Origin: Fibrobacter sp.
GTDB taxonomy: Bacteria > Fibrobacterota > Fibrobacteria > Fibrobacterales > Fibrobacteraceae
Assembly: GCA_024399015.1 (NCBI GenBank)
Contig: JAKSIC010000005.1
Coordinates: forward strand, 1-64,000
DNA: 64,000 bases
Direction of reading: 5' to 3'
This document shows positions 2,291-61,421 of the stretch, in pieces. Positions within the stretch are counted from its first letter, which is position 1. Every line of letters begins with the position of its first letter. Made by a program: the position numbers and the translations under genes. Under the pieces are notes generated by a model. It searched no databases, was not told the origin of the DNA, and saw only the letters and a list, made by a program, of their open reading frames with translations.

Positions 2291-3760
2291 TTATTTTCTC
2301 TCGTACAAGAAATAATCATACTCGTAGCTGCGACCCTTAAGAAGGATATTAAGAGAGTCTGCACCATATTTTTCTAGTAATGTAGGCTCTTGAGAATAAA
2401 GAGATCGTCCAAGCCCTAACGCATGGTTTGGAACATCGACACCCATAGCTTCGAGAATTGTTGGAAACATATCAAAAGACGTAAATTTTCTATTGAATAC
2501 ACTAGCTTGTACCGTAGAATTCATGAAAAAATTCATCCAAAAATGCGTAATTTTTTCTTCGGTGAATCCAACAGCTTGGGCAGGGACATAGGTTTCATGA
2601 TCACCCATCACAGCAATCACTGTATTTTCAAACCAACTTTGCTTTTCGGTCCACTCTATAAAGTCTTTTAGAAGTTTTGAAGAACATTCAAGAACATACG
2701 GATAAAGCTGTTTTGCTGTTAAATTTGGTGGGCATGTACATTTAGGATCCATGTAGCCATAAGGTGTGTGGGAATCCATTGTACTAATAACAAAAGCGAA
2801 AGGAGCTTGCTCTTTGGATACAGAATCAATATCACGTTTCACTAAATTATAAAGATCACGATCATTTATCCCCCAATTAGCTTTTTTTTCCTCAGAAAAA
2901 CGATTTGCAGTCAGATAGTATGTAACGTCACGAAATGAATCTATGTGATGAGTCGATGCAAAGCCATCCATAGATGCAAATTCCTTTTTCGATCCTTGTG
3001 CAAACAAAACGTTATAATCGTTTTGCTTTAAGATATCAGAAAGGCATACAGCATTGGGAAGGAAATTTTTTATTTGATGCGCACTATGATATACGCCAGG
3101 GGGATAATTCAGCGGAATTCCGCATGTTTTCGAAATAAGCGAGGCAACCGTCCAATTTGTACCAAAAACAGATTGTCCTCCCGGAACAAAAGAATCGTTC
3201 CTTTCCATCAATTCTGTAATCTCAGGAATTCTATTGACTGGAAGATTTCCTCCGTGTGTTGAATCCTGAAAATTCGATTCCATTGATTCCAAAAAAACTA
3301 AAATAAGATTTTTCTTTGTATTCGGAAATTTTATTTCGCCTACTGAAACATATTCTCTTTGATAAAAATCAGAATGTTGAGGTTCCTTTAAGTAGGAATA
3401 CCATGTTTGAACATATTTTACTACCGGGAAAAAATACACCAATTCAATGACGACAATAATTGCGGATAATATCGAAAACAATGAAAGGATTTTTGAGAAA
3501 GTTATGTTTTTATATTTCTTTCTCAAAAGATATGAAACAAAAAATGCCAGCCCGATAAATAAGAAAAAATTTATAACACTAGTTGATAAATTTTTCGTAA
3601 ACAAACTGAAGATGATTGACTCTGCACCATCAATTCCTTGGTTGATGGTAAACATAACTGCTTCAATTTGATCTACCGGGAAAAAATAATTCAAAAGTGG
3701 TAGGAATTCAATTAGATAGATTCCTATAAAAAAAAGAGAAGCATTAATTATTATTTTCAT
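2291..3760 (-). CDS. OpgB/LTA-synthase-like membrane sulfatase-fold transferase (copy 2)
   Basis: A 489-residue paralogue of the downstream gene with the same layout: about four N-terminal membrane segments, then a sulfatase-fold domain. It carries FLESMESNF (metal-binding Glu), a Thr motif GTNWTVASL followed by CGIPL as in OpgB, MDSHTPYG and VMGDHETYV. The predicted role is transfer of a phosphoglycerol-type group onto a periplasmic or surface glycan. I chose the ATG at 3760; an upstream extension to 3790 would run into the terminator hairpin that follows the prepilin gene. The two copies align across the whole catalytic domain but differ at many positions, so the duplication is old or the pair was acquired together. 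AT-rich composition hints at transfer. Confidence 0.75.
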   Translation of the reverse strand: MKIIINASLFFIGIYLIEFLPLLNYFFPVDQIEAVMFTINQGIDGAESIIFSLFTKNLSTSVINFFLFIGLAFFVSYLLRKKYKNITFSKILSLFSILSAIIVVIELVYFFPVVKYVQTWYSYLKEPQHSDFYQREYVSVGEIKFPNTKKNLILVFLESMESNFQDSTHGGNLPVNRIPEITELMERNDSFVPGGQSVFGTNWTVASLISKTCGIPLNYPPGVYHSAHQIKNFLPNAVCLSDILKQNDYNVLFAQGSKKEFASMDGFASTHHIDSFRDVTYYLTANRFSEEKKANWGINDRDLYNLVKRDIDSVSKEQAPFAFVISTMDSHTPYGYMDPKCTCPPNLTAKQLYPYVLECSSKLLKDFIEWTEKQSWFENTVIAVMGDHETYVPAQAVGFTEEKITHFWMNFFMNSTVQASVFNRKFTSFDMFPTILEAMGVDVPNHALGLGRSLYSQEPTLLEKYGADSLNILLKGRSYEYDYFLYERK

Positions 3761-3773
3761 GTAGTCTTTGGGT

Positions 3774-3810
3774 AAAAAAAAGACCGGCATTGTTCAATGC
3801 CGATCTTTTT
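3774..3810 (-). terminator. Intrinsic terminator of the prepilin gene
   Basis: The arms CGGCATTG and CAATGCCG form a perfect 8-bp stem with a two-base loop, flanked by A- and T-runs on both sides, so it can act in both directions. It sits 17 bases after the prepilin stop and only 14 bases before the ATG of the next leftward gene, which must therefore rely on read-through or a very short leader. Confidence 0.85.
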
Positions 3811-3826
3811 AGATTTTTTCTCAAAA

Positions 3827-4315
3827 TTACTTGAGTTCGAAGCTCTTGCCAGTAGAAAGACGCTTGAAGTTCGGGGTAAGAGCGTCACAGTTTGCCTTAT
3901 CAGAGATACCTGCGACGTAGGTAGCAATACCACCAGCACTAGTGTTTGCAACAACGTCCAAAGACCACTTAGAGCCGGCCTTGCAGTCGTTCAAAGCACC
4001 ATTTGCTGTAGCAGTCCAACCATCGGTCTGACCACCGGTCAGTTCAACGGAAGTATTGGCGGTGTAACCACCATAAGTGAATGCAGTAGAATTGTCCATC
4101 TTGTAACCAATCTTCTGCCAACCACCGATGCCGGTACCAACTTCAGCAATGTAAGCGTCCTGCAACTTCACGTATTCGCCAGCTGCGGGGCCGATTTCAG
4201 ATGCCTTGGACTTTGCGATCATGCCGAACAGCTTAGGTACTGCGACGGCTGCGAGGATGCCCATGATAACGATCACGACCATCAATTCAATAAGGGTAAA
4301 ACCTTGCTTCTTCAT
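3827..4315 (-). CDS. Type IV prepilin / pseudopilin
   Basis: A 162-residue prepilin. The leader MKKQG is followed by FTLIELMVVIVIMGILAAVA, the classic class III signal: cleavage after Gly, N-methylated Phe and Glu5, then the hydrophobic assembly helix. The globular part has two Cys (in LNDCK and DKANCD) likely forming a C-terminal disulfide, as in type IVa pilins. The start at ATG 4315 is fixed by AAGGAG seven bases upstream and by the leader. It probably forms a pilus, or a minor pilin of a type II secretion/type IV system, at the cell surface; pili of cellulolytic gut bacteria have been linked to fibre adhesion. No assembly genes are adjacent, so the pilin is encoded apart from its machinery. 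Confidence 0.9.
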   Translation of the reverse strand: MKKQGFTLIELMVVIVIMGILAAVAVPKLFGMIAKSKASEIGPAAGEYVKLQDAYIAEVGTGIGGWQKIGYKMDNSTAFTYGGYTANTSVELTGGQTDGWTATANGALNDCKAGSKWSLDVVANTSAGGIATYVAGISDKANCDALTPNFKRLSTGKSFELK

Positions 4316-4407
4316 AGTGTACTCCTTGTTATATGTTACACACTTGTTTGAGACTGGCACCGAGGAGCGTTAGTGTTCCGGAGTGTTTCCTCTCGTTTAC
4401 GTAAATA

Positions 4408-4435
4408 AATATATCTCTTTTCTGACCAATGTCAA
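4408..4435 (-). promoter_or_regulatory. Sigma70-type promoter of the prepilin gene
   Basis: Reading leftward, a TTGACA -35 box (4435-4430) is followed after 16 bases by TATATT (4413-4408). Transcription would start near 4401, giving a leader of about 85 bases to the ATG at 4315. The match to the consensus is strong and lies directly beside the 11-bp repeat array. Confidence 0.7.
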
Positions 4436-6149: not shown

Positions 6150-6509
6150 ATGAGTGAAAACTGCCTTTTCTGCAAGATTATCAAGGGAGAGATCCCTTCC
6201 AAGAAGATTTACGAAGACGACGATGTGTTCGCCTTCTACGATATCGCCCCCACCGCACCGGTGCACTTTTTGGTGATTCCCAAGAAGCACATTTCCAGCC
6301 TCATGGAGATGCAGGCCGAAGACTGCGAACTGATGGGCAAGCTTTTGTTCCAGGGTCAGCGCATTGCCAAGGAGCTTGGCCTCGAAGAATCTGGCGCACG
6401 TTTCGTGTTCAACGCCAAGGAAGACGCTGGCCAGACTGTTTTCCACATTCATTTGCATGTGGTGGGCGGCCAGAAGTTGGGTTGGCCCCCGTTCCCGCCG
6501 GAAAAGTAA
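6150..6509 (+). CDS. HIT family nucleotide hydrolase (HinT-like)
   Basis: A 119-residue histidine-triad protein. The zinc-ribbon-like start CLFCK, the nucleotide-binding core ending VIPKKHI and the catalytic triad HIHLHV near the C terminus are all present, and the length is normal. HinT-type enzymes are cytosolic purine nucleoside phosphoramidases that hydrolyse AMP-lysine and adenylated metabolites. It is first in a tight rightward run: recO starts 12 bases after its stop, and panB overlaps recO. Confidence 0.9.
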   Translation: MSENCLFCKIIKGEIPSKKIYEDDDVFAFYDIAPTAPVHFLVIPKKHISSLMEMQAEDCELMGKLLFQGQRIAKELGLEESGARFVFNAKEDAGQTVFHIHLHVVGGQKLGWPPFPPEK

Positions 6510-6521
6510 CCGCGCGGCCTT

Positions 6522-7328
6522 ATGCTTATCAAGACTCGTTGCATTGTTCTTCATCGGTTTCCGTATAGCGATTCCAGTTTTATCGTGAAGGCGCTTACCG
6601 AGGAGAGCGGCGTTATCTCCTTTATATTAAAGGGAGGCAAGCGCAAAGAGTCGCCTTTCAAGGGGGCGCTGGACCCGCTGGCTCTTAGCGAAGTGGTGTT
6701 CCGGCAGAACCCGCAAAAGTCTAGCGGCGACGGGCTTCTGTTCGTGAAGGAGGCAACCCTCCTGGACTGGCACGGCAATATGCGAAACGACTTGATGAGT
6801 ACGGCGGTGGCCCAGGTGATGGCAGAGATTGTAATGCGTTACGCCCCGCCGGGGGTTCCGCTGCAGGAGGAGTTCGCGTTGCTGAACCGCGCATTGGAGG
6901 AACTAGAGCGCGCGCATTCTAGCGACCAAACTAGCACCGACGCAGCAGCGAACGGCACAGGAACTTCCGCGAACAATGTGTTCGCCCAGTGGCTCCTGGA
7001 TACTTGCGACTTGTGGGGCTACCACCTGGACCTGGGAACATGCAGCCGCTGCGAGCGCTCGCTGGAGGAACCGCCGGCAGATTTCCATCCGGAATCCGGG
7101 GGTCTCATCTGCAGGGCCTGCCAAGGTGTCGACACGCCCCGCGCCCGTATCCAGACCACAGCGGGACTTTGGGCCTTGCGGAGCCGGCAGGACATCGGCG
7201 AAAGTCGGGTGTTCGTGGAGAACGCGCTCCTGGCCTACCTCAGGAACCACATCGGCTTTTTAAAGGAAATTCATTCTCTACAATGGTTACAGGAGATTAG
7301 AAAACTATGCTCAGCGCAAACGACATAA
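6522..7328 (+). CDS. recO: DNA repair protein RecO
   Basis: 268 residues. The N-terminal OB-fold (MLIKTRCIVLHRFPYSDSS, then the GVISFILKGGKR loop) and the C-terminal helical domain with a Cys pair (CSRC, then CRAC) that can bind zinc are typical of RecO. RecO acts with RecR to load RecA onto SSB-coated single-stranded DNA during gap repair. A Thr/Ala/Ser-rich insertion around residues 130-150 is unlike compact RecO proteins and looks like a flexible loop. The last 22 bases overlap the start of panB, implying co-translation. Confidence 0.88.
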   Translation: MLIKTRCIVLHRFPYSDSSFIVKALTEESGVISFILKGGKRKESPFKGALDPLALSEVVFRQNPQKSSGDGLLFVKEATLLDWHGNMRNDLMSTAVAQVMAEIVMRYAPPGVPLQEEFALLNRALEELERAHSSDQTSTDAAANGTGTSANNVFAQWLLDTCDLWGYHLDLGTCSRCERSLEEPPADFHPESGGLICRACQGVDTPRARIQTTAGLWALRSRQDIGESRVFVENALLAYLRNHIGFLKEIHSLQWLQEIRKLCSAQTT

Positions 7329-8050
7329 AGTTGAAGAAGGCCAAGGGCGAAAAAGTATCTATGATCACCGCCTATGACTACGCTTTTGCCCAGATGGCAG
7401 AGGCCGCAGGCGTAGACCAGATTCTCGTGGGAGACAGCCTGGCCAACACCATGCTTGGCTACAAGAGCACCCGTGAAGTAGGCATGAATGAAATGCTGAT
7501 TTTCGTAGGCGCCGTATGCCGCGGTGCCGCAAACACCCACGTGGTGGCCGACATGCCCTACGGAAGCGACGCCAACCCCCAGTTGGCCCTGGATAACGCC
7601 CGCCGTTTCATGGACGTAGGCGCCAGCTCCGTGAAGCTGGAAGGTGTTCCCGCAGGCGTCATCGAGAACTTGATCGCCCACGACATCCCGGTTTGCGGTC
7701 ACCTGGGCCTTTTGCCCCAGACTGCAGCCAACTTCAAGCAGAAGGGCCAGACCGAGGAAGAAGCCGCCAAGATTATGGCCGACGCCAAGTATATAGATAG
7801 TATCGGTTGCTTTGAATTCGTTCTGGAACACATTCCGGAGGCTCTGGGCACCCAGATTACGGAAGCCGTGAAGGCTGTGACCATCGGAATCGGCGGCGGA
7901 CGCTTTACCGACGGCCAGGTTCTGGTGATGCACGACGCCCTGGGCATGCACAACCGAAAGATTCCGCCATTTGCAACCAAATTCGCAGATTTGTATAGTG
8001 TAGGCGTAGAAGGAATGAAAAAGTACGTGGAAAGCGTGAAGACAATCTAA
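7307..8050 (+). CDS. panB: 3-methyl-2-oxobutanoate hydroxymethyltransferase
   Basis: 247 residues, a TIM-barrel enzyme making ketopantoate from 2-oxoisovalerate and methylene-tetrahydrofolate, the first committed step of pantothenate and CoA synthesis in the cytosol. Diagnostic segments are MITAYDYAFAQMAEAAGVD, LVGDSLANTMLGY, VVADMPYGS, SVKLEG, VCGHLGLLPQ and the late GIGGGRFTDGQVLV. It is shorter by about 15 residues than many PanB proteins but has all core motifs. Its start lies inside recO. The later CoA enzyme CoaBC is also in this window, on the opposite strand. Confidence 0.93.
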   Translation: MLSANDIKLKKAKGEKVSMITAYDYAFAQMAEAAGVDQILVGDSLANTMLGYKSTREVGMNEMLIFVGAVCRGAANTHVVADMPYGSDANPQLALDNARRFMDVGASSVKLEGVPAGVIENLIAHDIPVCGHLGLLPQTAANFKQKGQTEEEAAKIMADAKYIDSIGCFEFVLEHIPEALGTQITEAVKAVTIGIGGGRFTDGQVLVMHDALGMHNRKIPPFATKFADLYSVGVEGMKKYVESVKTI

Positions 8051-10104: not shown

Positions 10105-11067
10105 ATGGAAAATAAGCTTATCGCCACAGTAGACATCGGAAGCCACAGTTGCCTTATGCTGATTGCTGCTTTCGAAGAGGGTAAATTAGTTCCCAAGCTC
10201 CAGAAGGCAGAAGTGTGCCGCCTGGGTGAAGACGTCTACAGCGAAGATGGCGAGCCCTGCCCCATCAGCGAAAAGAAGATTAAGGAACTTTGCGACATCA
10301 TGGTGAAGTTCCGCATGGACCTGCACGCCCTGGGCGCAAATCTCCAGGCTGTAGTCATGACAGAAGCCATGCGCCGCGCCAGCAACCAGGAAGAAGTCCT
10401 GGACGCTGTGGAAAAGGCCATCTGGGTGCGCCCGCAGATCATCAGCGGCGAACAGGAAGGCAAGCTGACCTATCGTTCCGTAAAGGAATGGCACGGCGAA
10501 GACATTGTCACCGTGGACATCGGTGGCGGATCCACTGAACTTTCCAACGGCGAAACCACCTTCTCTATCCCCGTGGGCGCCCTGAAGATGTTCAAGGAAA
10601 TGGGTCCCATCCCGGGTCCTGAATACAAGAAGTTTGTAAAGGAAGCTTTCAAGGACGTAAGCTTCAAGGGTATGACCAAGAAGCAGGTGTTCCTGATCGG
10701 CGGCACCGGTACGGCTCTGGCCATGGTCTACCTGGACAAGCAGCAGTTCGACTACAAGGCCATCGAAGGCCTGGAACTGACTATCCGCGATTTGGAAGCC
10801 GTGACCACAAGAATTTCCAACCTTTCCAAGGAACTCCGCGCCATGTTGCCGGGTCTTGAAAACGGCCGTCACGAAGTAATCATCTGCGGTTTGTTCTGGC
10901 TGAAGTCCCTTTTGGAAAAGCTCCGCGTAGAAAGTTTCAAGATCAGTACTGCCGGATTGCGTTTCGGTTTGCTATATCCTCCAGAGCCTGAGCCCGAAGA
11001 AAAGCCCAAGGCCAAGCGCGTTCCGCCCTGGATGAAGAAAGCCGAAAGCGAAGAGGATAAAGGATAA
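10105..11067 (+). CDS. Ppx/GppA-type phosphatase (exopolyphosphatase family)
   Basis: 320 residues with the actin-like ATPase fold of exopolyphosphatase/guanosine pentaphosphatase. Phosphate-1 loop TVDIGSHSCLMLI (Ser replaces the usual Asn), catalytic-region ISGEQEGKLTYRSV, and phosphate-2 loop TVDIGGGSTELS are all present. It lacks the C-terminal HD-like domain of E. coli Ppx, which is about 500 residues; the short form is common in other phyla. The likely role is polyphosphate or pppGpp hydrolysis, and the two cannot be told apart here. The C terminus is a charged Pro/Glu/Lys tail. The stop codon lies in a duplicated GGATAAA heptamer. Confidence 0.82.
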   Translation: MENKLIATVDIGSHSCLMLIAAFEEGKLVPKLQKAEVCRLGEDVYSEDGEPCPISEKKIKELCDIMVKFRMDLHALGANLQAVVMTEAMRRASNQEEVLDAVEKAIWVRPQIISGEQEGKLTYRSVKEWHGEDIVTVDIGGGSTELSNGETTFSIPVGALKMFKEMGPIPGPEYKKFVKEAFKDVSFKGMTKKQVFLIGGTGTALAMVYLDKQQFDYKAIEGLELTIRDLEAVTTRISNLSKELRAMLPGLENGRHEVIICGLFWLKSLLEKLRVESFKISTAGLRFGLLYPPEPEPEEKPKAKRVPPWMKKAESEEDKG

Positions 11068-11137
11068 AGAATTTGAAAAAGGCGCCAAAGGCGCGATTAT
11101 TAATTTCATAATTCATAATTCGTAATTCATAATTAAT
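11055..11137. repeat. Heptanucleotide repeats at and after the ppx-like stop codon
   Basis: GGATAAA occurs twice in a row (11055-11068) across the stop codon. Further on, AATTCAT, AATTCGT, AATTCAT and AATTAAT follow at 11110-11137 with a period of seven. A small GCGCC/GGCGC hairpin lies between them. The second set is the reverse complement of the AATTACG/AATTATG heptads seen near the fumarase and transketolase genes. Confidence 0.8.
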
Positions 11138-11171
11138 CACGCTCCAGCTGTGAAGTTGCAAGGAAGATAAA

Positions 11172-11891
11172 ATGAGAATCAATAAATTCATTTCTTTATG
11201 TGGTATCGCCAGCCGTCGCGCCGCCGATACTTTGATTGCCGAAGGCAAGGTCATGGTCAATGGCGAAGTCATTAGCGACTTGGGCCATCAGGTCGACGAA
11301 GACAAGGACCAGGTGGTTGTGGACGGCGTGCGCGCGCGTCTCCCCAAGAAGTGCACCACCATTATGTTCCATAAGCCTGCCGGATGCGTTTGCACCAAGG
11401 ATGACCCCCAGGGGCGCCAGACTGTCTACGACTACCTGCCTCCTGGTTACCACACGTTGAAATACGTGGGGCGCCTCGACTTGCAGAGCCGCGGCCTGAT
11501 TCTCTTTACCGACGACGGCGAACTTTTGCACCGCCTCACCCACCCCAGCTACGAGATTCCCCGCAGCTACTTCGTGTGGACGGACCGCCCCCTCAGTGAA
11601 CATGCCGCCCAGAAGCTGGTTGACGGCGTAGACATTCGTGAAGAAGGCGCCGAGGAAGAAGAAATAGCTTTCGCTACAGACATTTATCTGGAAAATGGTT
11701 TTGCAGAACTGGTGCTTACCGAAGGTAAGAACCGTGAAATCCGCCGAATGATGCGCGCCGTAGGTTATGAAATCCGCGACTTGAAGCGCGTAAGCTACTG
11801 CAGGCTGCAGCTGGGCGACTTGCCTGCCGGCGAGTTCCGCGAACTCACCGCGGACGAAATGAACAAGCTCCGTCAGGCAGTTCACGTATGA
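11172..11891 (+). CDS. rluB: 23S rRNA pseudouridine synthase (RluB/RsuA family)
   Basis: 239 residues. It has an N-terminal S4 RNA-binding domain (MRINKFISLCGIASRRAAD) and a pseudouridine synthase domain with the catalytic Asp in GRLDLQSRGL and the late motif EGKNREIRRMM. RluB-type enzymes isomerise a uridine in helix 89 of 23S rRNA, RsuA-type one in 16S rRNA; the motif set fits RluB or RluF somewhat better, but the exact target is inferred. AAGGAAG lies seven bases before the ATG. The end overlaps the next gene by four bases (ATGA), so the pair is co-translated. Confidence 0.85.
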   Translation: MRINKFISLCGIASRRAADTLIAEGKVMVNGEVISDLGHQVDEDKDQVVVDGVRARLPKKCTTIMFHKPAGCVCTKDDPQGRQTVYDYLPPGYHTLKYVGRLDLQSRGLILFTDDGELLHRLTHPSYEIPRSYFVWTDRPLSEHAAQKLVDGVDIREEGAEEEEIAFATDIYLENGFAELVLTEGKNREIRRMMRAVGYEIRDLKRVSYCRLQLGDLPAGEFRELTADEMNKLRQAVHV

Positions 11892-12760
11892 GTTCCGCGC
11901 AGTCAAACACCGCGGGCAATGTGAACGCCGCGGGGCGTACCCTCTACATCGGGGACGTTCACGGCTGCGCCGATGAACTGGAAAAGATTGTAGACGCCTT
12001 CGGATTCGTCCGCGGGAAGGATACGCTGTACCAGACCGGCGACATCATCAATAAGGGACCGGACATGCTGCGGGCCATCAAGTTCGTGCAGCAGAACGGG
12101 ATCTTGACTGTCCGCGGAAACCACGAGGAACACCTCATCCGCATGATGACCACGCAGCAATGCGACTGGACCGAAAAACAATGCGCACGCTTTGCCCGCC
12201 TCCCTCTGGAAGACTGGGAATACATTCTCGCCGAAGTTCAGAACTGGCCCCTCTGGCGCGACACACCCCACGCGCTCCTGGTCCATGCCGGGCTGGAACC
12301 GGGCAAGACAAAGCTTGAGGAAATGGACCCGAAGGTCATCTTGTCCATCCGCTACTGGAACGACATTCCCTGGTTTGATCAGGTGACGTGGAATAAGCCT
12401 GTGGTGTTCGGCCACTGGGCCAAGATGGGATTCGTGGACCGCCGCCCCAACTTCATCGGGTTGGATTCCGGATGCGTCTACGGAAAGAAGCTTACCGCCT
12501 GGTGCCCGGAAGAAGACAAGTTCTACGTAGTGCCCGCCGCACGAGAATACACTCCCGTAAAGGACAAGGCAAAGACCGCTATTGATGCGCCCTGCAAGGT
12601 ACCAGGCGACAAGCTCCCCGAAGAGGAACGTCCCAAGACCTTCGACGACATCAAGGCCCGTATTGCAAGTGGCGATATTGCGCCCGCCGACGACAGCAAG
12701 GAAGCAGAAACCATCCGCAAGGCAAGCCCCAGCATTACCGCCGAATGGAGCGGTTACTAA
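11888..12760 (+). CDS. Calcineurin-like metallophosphatase
   Basis: 290 residues. The N-terminal domain has the phosphoesterase motifs GDVHG, GDIINKGPD and RGNHEEH, then VHAGL and FGHWA, in the order found in bacterial Ser/Thr protein phosphatases and ApaH-like diadenosine tetraphosphatases. A Pro/Asp-rich tail of about 80 residues is probably disordered. Substrate cannot be told: protein phosphates or dinucleoside polyphosphates are both possible. The four-base overlap with rluB indicates one transcript, and an ApaH-like role would match other RNA-maintenance linkages. Confidence 0.78.
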   Translation: MSSAQSNTAGNVNAAGRTLYIGDVHGCADELEKIVDAFGFVRGKDTLYQTGDIINKGPDMLRAIKFVQQNGILTVRGNHEEHLIRMMTTQQCDWTEKQCARFARLPLEDWEYILAEVQNWPLWRDTPHALLVHAGLEPGKTKLEEMDPKVILSIRYWNDIPWFDQVTWNKPVVFGHWAKMGFVDRRPNFIGLDSGCVYGKKLTAWCPEEDKFYVVPAAREYTPVKDKAKTAIDAPCKVPGDKLPEEERPKTFDDIKARIASGDIAPADDSKEAETIRKASPSITAEWSGY

Positions 12761-12780
12761 CAAGATTTAGCAAGAGCCTG

Positions 12781-12814
12781 CTTCGATTGCCGCGGCCTTC
12801 GGCCTCGCAATGAC
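12781..12814. repeat. Dispersed GTCATTGCGAG-type repeat element
   Basis: Read on the minus strand it starts GTCATTGCGAG and ends GCAATCGAAG around a small palindromic core. The same ends recur at 21198-21235 and, partly diverged, at 28272-28303; a related form lies at 32538-32572. It lies between convergent genes. Confidence 0.65.
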
Positions 12815-12821
12815 AATTCAA

Positions 12822-13454
12822 TTAGAAATTACAACCTGCAACGCAGCGGTTGTTTTCAAAGGTAGCCTCAAGAACCTTGAGGCCCTTTTTATATCTACGG
12901 TAGGCACCATGTCTGATGCCGTGTTCAAAAGTCATTTCCTCAATCAAGGAACCGACTTCGTCAAAGACTTTTCCCACACCATGGATATGCCCCTTCACAT
13001 AGGGTAGTTTCCGGCGCAGGTTTCCATTTTCATAATACTCTTCGGTGGTTCCGTTCAGGATTCCATCCCTGTAGACTTCCTTGGATTTCTTGGAACCATT
13101 TTCGTAATAGGTAGTGGAAATTCCTTCCTCGATTCCGTCCAGGTAACCGATGGTCTGCCACAATTTTCCATTTTCAAAATAGCTGCGGAATACCCCGTCC
13201 AGTTTTCCGTTTTTATAGGGAGCCTCCACCGCCACTTTACCGTTGGGATGATAGGAAACGGCCACGCCTTCGCGAATGTCGGTACCAGCCAGCACAGTAT
13301 AAACTCGGGCAGGGGTACCATCCGCAAACATGGTTTTCACCGTGTCATATTTGACCGGCGTCACACCCAGGGAGTCCGCATCGGCACAGAAAGCCGAAAC
13401 AGCCGCCATCAGCAAGACCATGGAGATAATCTCAACGAAAAAAAAGCGTTTCAT
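12822..13454 (-). CDS. Exported MORN-repeat protein (YwqK-like)
   Basis: 210 residues: signal peptide MKRFFFVEIISMVLLMAAVSAFCA, then five to six tandem MORN-type repeats of about 22 residues (SYHPNGKVAVEAPYKNGKLDG, SYFENGKLW, TYYENGSKK, EYYENGNLR and so on). Proteins of this type are often labelled YwqK-family antitoxin, but no toxin gene is adjacent and the signal peptide argues for a periplasmic or surface location. The repeats form beta-hairpins that may bind glycans, lipids or partner proteins. ATG 13454 was chosen over an upstream TTG because the signal peptide begins there. Confidence 0.75.
   Translation of the reverse strand: MKRFFFVEIISMVLLMAAVSAFCADADSLGVTPVKYDTVKTMFADGTPARVYTVLAGTDIREGVAVSYHPNGKVAVEAPYKNGKLDGVFRSYFENGKLWQTIGYLDGIEEGISTTYYENGSKKSKEVYRDGILNGTTEEYYENGNLRRKLPYVKGHIHGVGKVFDEVGSLIEEMTFEHGIRHGAYRRYKKGLKVLEATFENNRCVAGCNF
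12865..12890 (+). terminator. Intrinsic terminator inside the 3' end of the opposing gene
   Basis: GCCTCAAG and CTTGAGGC form a perfect 8-bp stem with an AAC loop followed by CCTTTTT on the plus strand. It would end the rightward rluB/phosphatase transcript while lying in coding sequence of the convergent MORN-repeat gene. Confidence 0.65.
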
Positions 13455-57223: not shown

Positions 57224-57883
57224 TCAACGAAATAGACGTTGGTTGAACTCTATCTCGAAGCCTGCATAGGAAGGGGAAATCTTTCGAAGGGCGGAGCACA
57301 AACCATCAGTTTTCCCCTGGTACGGGTAATTTCGACAGACTTTCAATTCAGGTGCGCGGGACCGGATTTCATCGATGATTACGTCTGCAATTTTTTTCTC
57401 CCAAGGGCGACTGGAATCATAGAGTACACCCACATCGGCATTTCGTTCTTTTCCGTCTAAAACAGGAGTAAAACTATGAATCGCCAGATGGAAAATAGGT
57501 GTTTCTGCTGAATTGACAAAATTTTCCAGGGAATCTCGATAATCCAGGTAGTAAGCAAAAGCCTTTTTTCGAAGAGCATAATATTTAGCTACAGTGCGGT
57601 CATCAGCCAACGGAGCCGGCGCGCAATGTTCCCAGAACTCGCTGAAAACACTTTTATTCCAAAGGCTACGATTCAGGTCTATAAACAGCCTGCTGTATCT
57701 TCCTGCAGAATAGAAATCCGGCTTTAGCTTCCGCACCAAGGCGTCATAAAGTTCCACCGCCCCAATATCGTATCCGCGATGGGTATTCAGAATTTCCTGA
57801 GGAATTTCCAAATTACGGGCAAAGGAAGGAACGTCGTTGCGGGCATGTTCGCAAGTAACGATCAACTTAAAATCATCAAACAT
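57224..57883 (-). CDS. N-formylglutamate amidohydrolase-like protein
   Basis: 219 residues. VTCEHARNDVP (metal-binding Glu and His), HRGYDIGAVELYDAL, SRLFIDLNRSLWNKS and HSFTP (His) match the HutG/N-formylglutamate amidohydrolase family, zinc-type peptidase-like enzymes. It would cleave a small amide such as formyl- or acyl-glutamate or a product of the neighbouring ligases. No histidine-degradation genes are near. ATG 57883 was chosen, 17 bases after the GCS2-type gene stop; last gene of the four-gene cluster. Confidence 0.78.
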   Translation of the reverse strand: MFDDFKLIVTCEHARNDVPSFARNLEIPQEILNTHRGYDIGAVELYDALVRKLKPDFYSAGRYSRLFIDLNRSLWNKSVFSEFWEHCAPAPLADDRTVAKYYALRKKAFAYYLDYRDSLENFVNSAETPIFHLAIHSFTPVLDGKERNADVGVLYDSSRPWEKKIADVIIDEIRSRAPELKVCRNYPYQGKTDGLCSALRKISPSYAGFEIEFNQRLFR

Positions 57884-57900
57884 ATGTGTCCCGGAGAACC

Positions 57901-59145
57901 TTACTCCACGTCGTACAAAGTATTTTCTGCAAGGCAACGGGCCAAGCGACCGTATTCGCAAACAAAATCGTCGCGACCAGGATTTGTCCCCACGTTCTTT
58001 ACCAGGGTGCTGGCGAGGGTGCCACGGTTGAACATTTTTTGGAGAAGTGCCAAAGAATGGGCGGAAATCTTGGACTGAACTTTTGCGGTGATTTTCTTGA
58101 CGAGTTCACCTGCCGTGATTTCAGAAGCTTCGATACCAAAGGCTACCAGAAAGTTCTTGTCGCGAATGATTGTCTTTTCGGCGAAGCGGGTGGTGTCCAG
58201 CAGGATTTTTGCAAGGGCTTCCGTCTCCAGCTTTTTCACACGGTACAATGCGAAGGAAGAATCCAGCCCGGTGAAGGCACCTTCGGTGAGGCCCTTCAAC
58301 ACAGCCACTTCCCATTCGGCGATGGCGATGTCGGCATCAGGACATTCCTGAATATCCACCAGACGGATTTCCACGGCACCGCGGTCAAAGCGGGCAATGG
58401 CTCCACGGCTATTGAGGAAGAAATGGTTCAGCAAATGTTCCGTATCGTAGGGAGCAATATCCGCCTTCACCTTCTCGAAAATCTGCTTGTTGTAATCGTC
58501 GTAAGTGAATACAGCTTCCGGAATCACGGAGCCAGCGATACTGGGAACACGATCCTGATTGTGGCGGTAAGTCTCAATACGGCCATCCAAGCAACCGCAG
58601 TATTTTCCATCCAGGAAGGGGCTGGATGCGGCGATGGCCGGAATCAGAGGAAGCAAGGCTCGAATGGCAGCATGCAACTTTCCGAATTCAGCATCACCGT
58701 TAAAACTCAAGTTAATATGAGTGCTCTGAAGATTCGCCCAGCCGTGGCCTTTGCAGTTGAAAATGCGGTCGTAGGTCTCGTAGATTTCGTTGCAGTCATA
58801 GGGCCACAACTGCATTTCTGCAGGATCCATAAAAGGGTGTGCCGCACTAGGCAGGAGCATGGCGTTAATGGACTTCAGTTTTTCGTTGGCCAGCAAAATT
58901 TCCTTATGGAAGGCTGTGCCAAGATTCTTCAGATGCTCCACAGGGTTAGCGCACTTGAATTCCAGAACATGGCTCACCAATTCATTGGAAAGTCCAATAC
59001 AACCGTGTTCCACATCGGAAAGCTGTTCGCCGTTCTTATCCTTTCCCAGCGGCACATCAGCACGAGGGAGGACATTTAAATTGTCTCGGTCAACGATCAT
59101 GTATTCCATCTCGATGCCGTATTTTTGCCAAAGTTTGAAATTCAT
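57901..59145 (-). CDS. GCS2-type glutamate-cysteine-ligase-like enzyme
   Basis: 414 residues. YGIEMEYMIVDRDNLNVLP (Glu-containing active-site strand), HVLEFKCANP, STHINLSFNG, CGCLDGRIETYRHNQDR and AVEIRLVDIQECP are features of the carboxylate-amine ligase family that contains GshA type 2 and YbdK. It forms a gamma-glutamyl or related amide bond with ATP. The ATG overlaps the stop of the ATP-grasp gene by four bases. With two ligases in one cluster, the likely job is building a small glutamyl-containing compound, or modifying a peptide. Confidence 0.78.
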   Translation of the reverse strand: MNFKLWQKYGIEMEYMIVDRDNLNVLPRADVPLGKDKNGEQLSDVEHGCIGLSNELVSHVLEFKCANPVEHLKNLGTAFHKEILLANEKLKSINAMLLPSAAHPFMDPAEMQLWPYDCNEIYETYDRIFNCKGHGWANLQSTHINLSFNGDAEFGKLHAAIRALLPLIPAIAASSPFLDGKYCGCLDGRIETYRHNQDRVPSIAGSVIPEAVFTYDDYNKQIFEKVKADIAPYDTEHLLNHFFLNSRGAIARFDRGAVEIRLVDIQECPDADIAIAEWEVAVLKGLTEGAFTGLDSSFALYRVKKLETEALAKILLDTTRFAEKTIIRDKNFLVAFGIEASEITAGELVKKITAKVQSKISAHSLALLQKMFNRGTLASTLVKNVGTNPGRDDFVCEYGRLARCLAENTLYDVE

Positions 59146-60644
59146 AAATAAAAGGCTCTCTCGTGTTGAATGAGTTTTTGTTGGGCTGCGTTCAGGCGGT
59201 CTTCTATGCGGTGGCGCAAGGAACGCATGATGGCAGCGTAGATTTTTCTTTTACCGACTTGATCTTCAATCCCCGCGTCGATACTGGGGTTATCATTGAC
59301 TTCTACTACAATGGGGTGGCCATCCCATTCCTTAAGATCCACGCCATACAAGCCGTTGCCAATCATGCTGCAGATTTTAAGCGCAGTCTTTACAACGCCA
59401 TGAGGCACATTTTCAATAGGCAGGCAGTCGAACATGCCACAGATTTCGTCCTTGTCTTCGCTGGCCCAGTTATAGATTTGCCAGTGGTCCTTTGCCATGT
59501 AGTATTTGCAGGCATAAAGGGGCTTTCCGTCCAGCACGCCAATACGCCAGTCAAAATCCGTAGGGGTAAATTCCTGGGCAATCAGAAGGTCGCTGGTTTC
59601 GAACATCTTGTTCAGCGTATCTTCCAGTTCCTCGTGATTCGTCACCTTCTTCACGCCCATGGAGAAGCTGGAATCCGGCGACTTGATCACCATGGGGAAC
59701 CCGATCTCCTTAGCCAACGTGTGGCGATTTTCGGAATGGGCAATGATGGTCTTCGGCGTATGAATTTTTGCAGCCTGCATCAATTCCTGAAGGTACACCT
59801 TGTTGGAGCAGCGGAGGATGCTATCCGGGTCATCAATGACGGCGATGCCCAAGGATTGAGCGCGACGAGCAAAACTGTAAGTGTAATGATTTACGTTGGT
59901 GGTTTCGCGGATGAACAGAGCGTCAAATTCACCGACTCGGTGATAATCCTTACGGGTAATCAATTCCACACGGAAACCGGTTTCTTCGGCAGCCTTGATG
60001 AAGTTCTGGATAGCCTGAGCGTTACTGGGAGGCTCCTTTTCTTCAGGGTTCGTGAGAATCGCCAAGTCATACAAGTAATCTTCTTCCTTGCTGGTGGCGT
60101 AGCGGTTCTTTTCGAAGTATTCCTGGGCAAACTTGTTCACCAAATCCATGTGGGTTTCCGGAATTTCATCCACGCAAATAGGGCGAATGCTCTGAATGAA
60201 CCATTTCTGCTTAAAGATGAATTTGGCACGAAGAAGCGGAGCCTGGAACAAGCGATAAAGTTCCTGAGAAAGTTCCAAGTACTGGGGGCTTACATTCTGG
60301 CCGAAGTAAATACTCAAGACAAACTCGGTACTCGTTAGTTTATGCAAACTCTTCTGGATCAAGTTGTCAATTTCGTCAGAAATATGCTTGATGACTGCGG
60401 TAGTCTTGAAATCACGCATATTCTTGACGCCAGGAATCACCTTGTGTCCGCGGGCTTCCGCCAGGAGGGACACGTAGTAGCCCTTGCTCTGGTAACTGTA
60501 ATCCCTGCAGAGGTTAAAAACGCGAGTATTACGGTCACCGTTGTATTTTTGGGAAATAAGGTAGTCCTGGGCAGAAACAACTTCTACTCCGGGTACATTA
60601 AGCTTCCAATTCTTCGGGTTATAAACAACAATTAATTTTTTCAT
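59142..60644 (-). CDS. RLAN-domain RimK-like ATP-grasp ligase
   Basis: 500 residues. The N-terminal RLAN domain (about 1-170) has RDYSYQSKGYYVSLLAEARGHKV; the ATP-grasp domain (about 225-480) has IRETTNVNHYTYSFA, CSNKVYLQELM, PMVIKSPDSSFSMGVKKV (nucleotide loop), and VVEVNDNPSIDAGIED (metal site). RimK-type enzymes attach glutamate or other amino acids by amide bonds; RLAN forms occur in predicted peptide-modifying and metabolite clusters. Substrate unknown. It sits second in the leftward cluster, between heptad repeats and a four-base overlap with GCS2. ATG 60644 has no strong ribosome site. Confidence 0.8.
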   Translation of the reverse strand: MKKLIVVYNPKNWKLNVPGVEVVSAQDYLISQKYNGDRNTRVFNLCRDYSYQSKGYYVSLLAEARGHKVIPGVKNMRDFKTTAVIKHISDEIDNLIQKSLHKLTSTEFVLSIYFGQNVSPQYLELSQELYRLFQAPLLRAKFIFKQKWFIQSIRPICVDEIPETHMDLVNKFAQEYFEKNRYATSKEEDYLYDLAILTNPEEKEPPSNAQAIQNFIKAAEETGFRVELITRKDYHRVGEFDALFIRETTNVNHYTYSFARRAQSLGIAVIDDPDSILRCSNKVYLQELMQAAKIHTPKTIIAHSENRHTLAKEIGFPMVIKSPDSSFSMGVKKVTNHEELEDTLNKMFETSDLLIAQEFTPTDFDWRIGVLDGKPLYACKYYMAKDHWQIYNWASEDKDEICGMFDCLPIENVPHGVVKTALKICSMIGNGLYGVDLKEWDGHPIVVEVNDNPSIDAGIEDQVGKRKIYAAIMRSLRHRIEDRLNAAQQKLIQHERAFYL

Positions 60645-60662
60645 AGGAAATTTTGGGTATGC

Positions 60663-60733
60663 AGTGGTTAGTGGCTAGTAAACAGGATTGCAGAAAAATG
60701 TCCGCAACCACCAATCACTAGTCACTAATCACT
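60663..60733. repeat. Inverted pair of AGTGRYT heptad arrays
   Basis: AGTGGTT, AGTGGCT, AGTAAAC lie at 60663-60683; AACCACC, AATCACT, AGTCACT, AATCACT at 60706-60733, the reverse complement of the same consensus. The TGA stop of the C39-like gene (60731-60729) is part of the right array. Confidence 0.88.
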
Positions 60734-61421
60734 TTTCTACTACAAGAACATTGCCGTCGTAGGTCATGACGCCAAGGAGAATGCTGTGGATCAGTCGGAA
60801 CTTATCCACCTTGTAGTAAGGGCCGTCGCAAAGAGGATTTGCGCAGTCCGGATCCGCCACCAGGAACTGTTTCTTTTCATCAAGGCCGTACAGCACTACG
60901 AAATGGCCGCAAGGATCCCCGATGATATCATCAAACACAGAGCGGTTGTTTTCGTTGGTGTATTCCCGCTTGCAACCGTAGAGATATGTGGCCGAAAGTC
61001 CGCAAAGAACAGGAACGTTCTTCTTGAAGTACTTCTCGAACATGGACGCCCGCAAGTCTGCAGTCGCCACAGTGCCACCCAGGTCAATAAAGCGGATATA
61101 GGCTTCGATAGCCTTCTTCAGTTTTGGAGCATGCTTCGCCTTGTGGAGCTGAACGAGTTTTGCTCGCAACTCCGGCATCTTGAGGTCACTCCAGCTGGGG
61201 TCGAAAATCTTGAGATTGTAAGAATAGATAGTAACCTTAAAGCCCCGCTTCAGGGCGTCGATACCCAGGAACACCCCAAGGGTACCGCCTTCTTCAAGGA
61301 ATTCAATTTCAGAGATGAGTTGTTGAAGGGAAAGGTTTAAGCCAAGATGCGCATAAACCGCGTGGAGGCTCGTGGGGCCGCAAGTCACGTCATCTGGCTG
61401 CGGTAGGATTTTGATGTCCAT
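60729..61421 (-). CDS. C39-like cysteine peptidase
   Basis: 230 residues. DDVTCGPTSLHAV contains the catalytic Cys14, and GHFVVLYG gives the His, with ADPD as the likely Asp. This is the peptidase C39 fold used to trim double-glycine leader peptides, here without an ABC transporter fusion. As the first gene of the leftward cluster with two amide ligases, it may process a precursor peptide, or act as a hydrolase on the product. No precursor peptide gene with a double-Gly leader was found nearby. Function otherwise open. Confidence 0.78.
   Translation of the reverse strand: MDIKILPQPDDVTCGPTSLHAVYAHLGLNLSLQQLISEIEFLEEGGTLGVFLGIDALKRGFKVTIYSYNLKIFDPSWSDLKMPELRAKLVQLHKAKHAPKLKKAIEAYIRFIDLGGTVATADLRASMFEKYFKKNVPVLCGLSATYLYGCKREYTNENNRSVFDDIIGDPCGHFVVLYGLDEKKQFLVADPDCANPLCDGPYYKVDKFRLIHSILLGVMTYDGNVLVVEK

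Follow-up and report, generated by a model that had tools for sequence, protein, structure and literature searches.

In the glutathione pathway and phytochelatin synthase taken together, a GCS2 ligase, an ATP-grasp ligase and a papain-fold enzyme are found, and the locus described here encodes one of each. It differs from that pathway by an additional RLAN domain and an additional FGase hydrolase, by scores far under the GshA and GshB cut-offs, and by its coexistence with glutathione synthetase in Gammaproteobacteria. A related group of ligases comprises RimK, which modifies ribosomal protein S6, and LysX and ArgX, which modify LysW; their ATP-grasp core resembles that predicted for residues 190-486 of the ligase studied here (Z 26-28), which in addition carries some 180 residues of RLAN domain at its N-terminus and scores far under the RimK, LysX and MptN cut-offs. 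Finally, clusters in which RLAN is fused to a RimK-like ATP-grasp enzyme, with partner ligases and peptidases adjacent, were reportedly predicted as RLAN amidoligase clusters by Iyer et al. 2009. With RLAN already a Pfam domain (PF14401), the present gene set has very probably been noticed before among predicted amidoligase clusters, and nothing analysed here sets the cassette apart from these. Neither a characterised product nor a paper on this gene set was found in the literature searched. Added here are quantitative co-inheritance, a two-plus-two split of the operon, the alternation of GNAT and GCS2 partners, and structural matches.

Organization of the four-gene cassette

The window, that is, the whole stretch of 64,000 nucleotides that was analysed, belongs to a Fibrobacter genome of 3.34 Mb and 99.85% completeness (G000, contig 39). 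Open reading frames and Pfam matches delimit a four-gene cassette on the minus strand at 57224-61421, transcribed in the order C39-like peptidase, RLAN-ATP-grasp ligase, GCS2 ligase and FGase:

60729..61421, minus strand: C39-like papain-fold cysteine peptidase, 230 aa; first gene; Cys14, His173, Asp190 and oxyanion Gln8
59142..60644, minus strand: RLAN domain plus RimK/LysX-like ATP-grasp ligase, 500 aa; PF14401 and PF08443
57901..59145, minus strand: GCS2-type carboxylate-amine ligase, 414 aa; PF04107
57224..57883, minus strand: FGase-family (N-formylglutamate amidohydrolase-like) hydrolase, 219 aa with the likely ATG; PF05013

The leftward run of these four genes, named in a preliminary description of this DNA, is borne out, with every gene in its place and all Pfam matches over their cut-offs. 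The four-base overlap claimed for the two ligase genes is likewise visible in the sequence as an ATGA: in TTTATTTATGAATTTC, TGA is the stop codon of the RLAN gene and ATG the start codon of the GCS2 gene. The FGase frame is also open over 57224-57961, from a TTG at 57961 inside the GCS2 gene. Since the alignment of relatives begins at the ATG at 57883, located 17 bases past the GCS2 stop, this ATG appears the more likely start. The spacer between the C39 and RLAN genes (60645-60728) contains imperfect repeats of TTAGTGACTAGTGATT and CCACTAACCACT. It measures 84 bases in the window, against a few to tens of bases in the majority of close relatives; as their gap is so much shorter, the spacer possibly represents a small repeat element that was inserted.

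All four window proteins are intact at the positions conserved in at least 97% of their relatives (29-62 relatives), the catalytic ones included. The genes on either side have no relation to the cassette: downstream lies a transketolase gene, and upstream a divergent gene for a large membrane-type protein. No structured RNA was matched by Rfam within the operon, and promoter and terminator scans gave signals not above chance.

Conservation and rearrangement of the cassette

When about 85,000 species genomes were searched with a RLAN protein alignment, more than 575 relatives were obtained, the nearest named ones being Fibrobacter MAGs and F. intestinalis. Neighbourhoods were counted for the best 80 of these loci, which come from about 15 phyla according to their record titles. 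The order C39-RLAN-GCS2-FGase was present in 42 of the 80, C39-RLAN-GCS2 in 16 and RLAN-GCS2 in 9, all of these being lower bounds, with some loci stopping at contig edges. Adjacent genes overlap or lie at most 50 bp apart in 59 of 63 C39-RLAN, 57 of 67 RLAN-GCS2 and 38 of 42 GCS2-FGase pairs, as judged from start sites set partly by alignment. This shared gene order is far beyond chance. The four genes thus remain together, in one order and in many phyla, and the earlier reading of the set as one functional module, in which two ligases form amide bonds with ATP and are joined by two hydrolases, is supported by conservation well outside the genus. Cultured carriers include Fibrobacter intestinalis, Pontibacter, Rufibacter and Legionella adelaidensis.

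Divergence between phyla is correlated for RLAN and GCS2 (rho 0.55) and for RLAN and C39 (rho 0.69), above 2000 label shuffles, although common species history can contribute to such values. The correlations of FGase, which evolves faster, are weaker (rho 0.30-0.41). Beyond the four, no gene around the 80 loci is kept with the cassette from phylum to phylum, and the repeated neighbours reflect genus-level synteny, mostly in Pontibacter. The small peptide gene envisaged in the preliminary description did not appear in the 80 neighbourhoods, whose open frames of at least 45 aa likewise show no co-conserved gene for a carrier protein, a precursor peptide or a transporter. Phages and viral contigs yielded no relatives of the cassette.

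Co-occurrence was also evident when whole genomes were compared. Seventeen of 295 Bacteroidia encode a full-length RLAN protein (at least 640 bits; next best 59), and the 12 genomes with a cassette-type C39 are all among these 17, with C39 directly beside RLAN. Throughout 463 genomes, the cassette-type C39 never occurs without RLAN. Of the 168 Fibrobacterota genomes, 92 have RLAN together with GCS2, 73 have neither gene and 3 have one without the other (Fisher p 4e-44, a value that overstates independence, the genomes being related). C39 is found in 82 of the 168 and never without the ligases, while FGase occurs without them once, as a 76-aa fragment.

The Fibrobacterota also show how the cassette comes apart. 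Sixteen Fibrobacter genomes keep all four genes but hold RLAN-GCS2 apart from an adjacent C39-FGase pair, at a distance of 25-125 kb where both pairs are on one contig; in a seventeenth (G019), contig ends interrupt the arrangement. In the RLAN tree, the sampled split genomes group together as a single clade (support 97/92); one row of this tree, G010, fell in the wrong place on a very long branch and was disregarded. Furthermore, RLAN and GCS2 are the only cassette genes in ten Fibrobacterota genomes, of which G124 is 99% complete, and no genome carries only intact C39 and FGase; where a MAG is less complete and has the split arrangement, the absence of both hydrolase genes possibly reflects a missing contig. 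Since the operon is split between the two pairs, and since C39 and FGase are absent jointly, we infer two sub-modules, one of ligases for synthesis and one of hydrolases for processing or turnover. In two genomes, G144 and G147, an intact C39 gene stands beside RLAN in addition to a C39 relic at the FGase gene, which suggests that the split went through a duplication. The relics, both broken, adjoin FGase on contig 53 of G144 (3468-4414) and contig 81 of G147 (12212-13113), and the duplicated C39-FGase pair of these genomes looks as if it were decaying. A set of genes conserved over many phyla, and surviving as two intact pairs after the operon was broken, must be widely useful.

Several Fibrobacter genomes carry, between GCS2 and FGase, a lipoprotein-like gene that encodes a Y_phosphatase3 domain (58.7 bits); it was located at 6229-7677 of locus L042 and 10986-12431 of locus L048, and is absent in the window.

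Outside the Fibrobacterota, the gene content of RLAN loci is variable. In Legionella adelaidensis, the RLAN-GCS2-FGase genes are annotated as RimK family protein, glutamate-cysteine ligase family protein and N-formylglutamate amidohydrolase. Three Candidatus Uhrbacteria loci (L066, L069, L122), from genomes of about 1 Mb, have RLAN-GCS2 with the four-base overlap and lack C39; the retention of only the ligase pair in these reduced genomes argues that this pair is useful alone. Several other loci carry RLAN without GCS2, some of them with a GNAT neighbour, so GCS2 is not required by every RLAN enzyme. Indeed, in two loci of Verrucomicrobia type (L094, L119), a GNAT gene adjoins RLAN, and GCS2 is absent from both the locus and the rest of the genome. 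An Azospirillum locus (L145, 3763-6470) resembles the cassette in that its RLAN-ATP-grasp gene adjoins a C39-like peptidase domain, here within a GNAT-DUF3335 fusion whose gene overlaps that of RLAN by one base; it differs in having GNAT instead of GCS2 and no FGase gene nearby. This arrangement looks like a second flavour of RLAN system. These variants suggest that RLAN is the constant element, that its partner ligase is exchangeable and that it is regularly accompanied by amide hydrolases.

Family assignment and predicted structures of the four proteins

The RLAN protein belongs to the RLAN-RimK ATP-grasp family, with 161.9 bits to PF14401 (cut-off 25) and 39.8 bits to RimK PF08443 (cut-off 21). 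Its RLAN domain occupies approximately residues 25-170 and its ATP-grasp part residues 190-486; the ATP-grasp fold is seen in the structure model (pLDDT 89), and the EVNDNP and DWR motifs are at the expected positions of the core. When the predicted model was compared over residues 192-484 by VIA-align, the core came nearest to ArgX/LysX (Z 27.9), then to RimK (Z 26-27). In the search with the whole model, the match list was filled by the ATP-grasp domain; by sequence, the RLAN domain finds no counterpart in any solved structure. The idea that RLAN is an internal duplicate of the ATP-grasp domain was unsupported (hhalign probability 1.7%). The protein does not exceed any NCBIfam equivalog cut-off (RimK 27.9 bits versus 331, LysX 68.2 versus 275.6, MptN 65.9 versus 350) and gives 74 bits to rimK_fam, whose cut-off is 143.4.

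Its partner ligase is a GCS2 family member (PF04107, 61.3 bits, cut-off 21) in which E12, E14, H103, H134, Q140, H143, R247, R252, E259 and R261 are conserved in at least 97% of 48 relatives. It is distant from all named members, and NCBIfam does not place it in GshA or YbdK, the best score being 39.6 bits against a YbdK-subfamily cut-off of 176.4.

The peptidase is assigned to the C39 family by matches to Peptidase_C39_2 (PF13529, 30.3 bits, cut-off 24) and Peptidase_C39 (PF03412, 29.4 bits, cut-off 22), and its residues Q8, C14, H173 and D190 are invariant in 48 relatives. By VIA-align, its AlphaFold model (pLDDT 93.6) matches the glutathione-bound C83-family phytochelatin synthase Alr0975 with Z 15.2 over 155 residues, the C39 domains of PCAT1 and ComA with Z of about 15, and the pseudomurein endoisopeptidase PeiR with Z 14.9. 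Lying less than 1 Z unit apart, these matches are tied and concern the fold only.

The last protein can be assigned with confidence, from its sequence, to the FGase family (PF05013, 65.5 bits, cut-off 28.9) and not to HutG: the HutG model TIGR02017 gives no match to the window protein and 17.9 bits, against a cut-off of 278.75, to a gammaproteobacterial relative. A solved relative is 2odf (Atu2144; E 8e-24). Residues E12, H13, H35, D39, R65, N71, R72 and H136 are conserved in at least 97% of 29 relatives, and the predicted metal site includes H13 and H136.

Possible products of the cassette

With moderate confidence, we read the cassette as a self-contained cytosolic system for the synthesis and turnover of a small glutathione-like non-ribosomal peptide or isopeptide. 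In such a pathway, the GCS2 enzyme would couple an amino acid to an amine at the expense of ATP, the amino acid being probably glutamate, attached by its side-chain carboxylate, and the RLAN-ATP-grasp ligase, with its RimK/LysX-like core, would append another amino acid. The C39-like enzyme could then cleave or transpeptidate the ligase product, as phytochelatin synthase does with glutathione, and the zinc-type FGase-family hydrolase could release a terminal acyl-amino acid, leading to recycling or maturation. This reading is favoured by the conserved gene order, by the co-inheritance of the genes and their division into two pairs, by the intact catalytic residues, by the ArgX/LysX/RimK-like core and the tied phytochelatin synthase match of the C39 model, and by the lack, in the 80 neighbourhoods, of any co-conserved carrier, precursor or transporter gene. 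More tentatively, the product could be a small peptide metabolite or cofactor not described so far, glutathione-like in chemistry and not in sequence, made in at least 10 phyla and provided with its own turnover enzymes. Several points speak against a peptide product: a shared fold does not show function, and the phytochelatin synthase match is tied with others; not every RLAN enzyme requires GCS2; the joint loss of C39 and FGase in draft MAGs can stem from missing contigs; and RimK and LysX use protein carboxylates, so the target could also be a protein.

The main rival of the glutathione-like peptide is protein tagging, in which the RLAN-ATP-grasp and GCS2 enzymes would add an amino-acid or short-peptide tag to a protein, to be removed or trimmed by C39 and FGase. 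The resemblance of the ATP-grasp core to ArgX/LysX and RimK, which act on protein C-termini, is in its favour; the additional RLAN domain could bind a protein, and the cassette peptidase fits the role of an eraser. However, a gene for a carrier or target protein is not co-conserved near the cassette in the 80 neighbourhoods, and the NCBIfam RimK and LysX scores are all far under the equivalog cut-offs. We consider tagging rather unlikely.

The loci with GNAT beside RLAN, or with RLAN after the GNAT-DUF3335 fusion, bring to mind an N-acylated or amidated small peptide akin to N-acetylglutaminylglutamine amide, used as osmolyte or for storage, for which GCS2 and GNAT would be interchangeable suppliers of the first acyl group. 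The FGase family cleaves N-acyl-glutamate-type amides, which would suit such a compound. The Azospirillum GNAT fusion, however, reaches only 34 bits against the N-acetylglutaminylglutamine synthetase cut-off of 569, and an asparagine-synthetase-like partner was not seen among the co-conserved neighbours, making an osmolyte of this kind improbable.

Ordinary glutathione biosynthesis, with GCS2 acting as GshA and the ATP-grasp enzyme as GshB, would agree with the gene logic of the cassette and with its GCS2 being the sole PF04107 protein of the genome. Yet the GCS2 protein scores 18-29 bits with GshA models (cut-offs 249-463) and the ATP-grasp protein 23.7 bits with GshB (cut-off 272), and the predicted ATP-grasp core is structurally nearer to RimK/LysX (Z 27.9) than to glutathione synthetase (Z 22.2). 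Five gammaproteobacterial RLAN genomes, four of them with the cassette, moreover contain a strong glutathione synthetase match (223-259 bits). Since GCS2 is far under the GshA and YbdK cut-offs and the cassette coexists with glutathione synthetase elsewhere, it does not correspond to ordinary glutathione synthesis, which we regard as highly improbable here, nor is it a glutathione replacement everywhere. The possibility raised in the preliminary description, that its GCS2 protein is an ordinary GshA acting alone, is contradicted by the same data.

A graspetide-like RiPP, in which the ATP-grasp enzyme would cross-link a ribosomal peptide and C39 remove its leader, is scarcely credible: graspetide loci can hold both C39 peptidases and ATP-grasp enzymes (PMC8939145), but no small precursor gene (open frames of at least 45 aa) or transporter is conserved around the 80 loci, the C39 protein is of a stand-alone, cytosolic type with a helical insertion and without an ABC transporter, and GCS2 and FGase enzymes are unexpected in such clusters.

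If the cassette truly makes a glutathione-like compound, it would represent a new general small-molecule pathway in bacterial physiology; if it makes a protein tag, a new reversible modification. As regards the glutathione-like peptide, a spirochaete locus (L118) has a peptidase C26 gene (6418-7140, 209 bits) directly before C39-RLAN, with GCS2 elsewhere in the genome. This peptidase belongs to the family of gamma-glutamyl-GABA hydrolase, and its presence hints at a product with a gamma-glutamyl bond.
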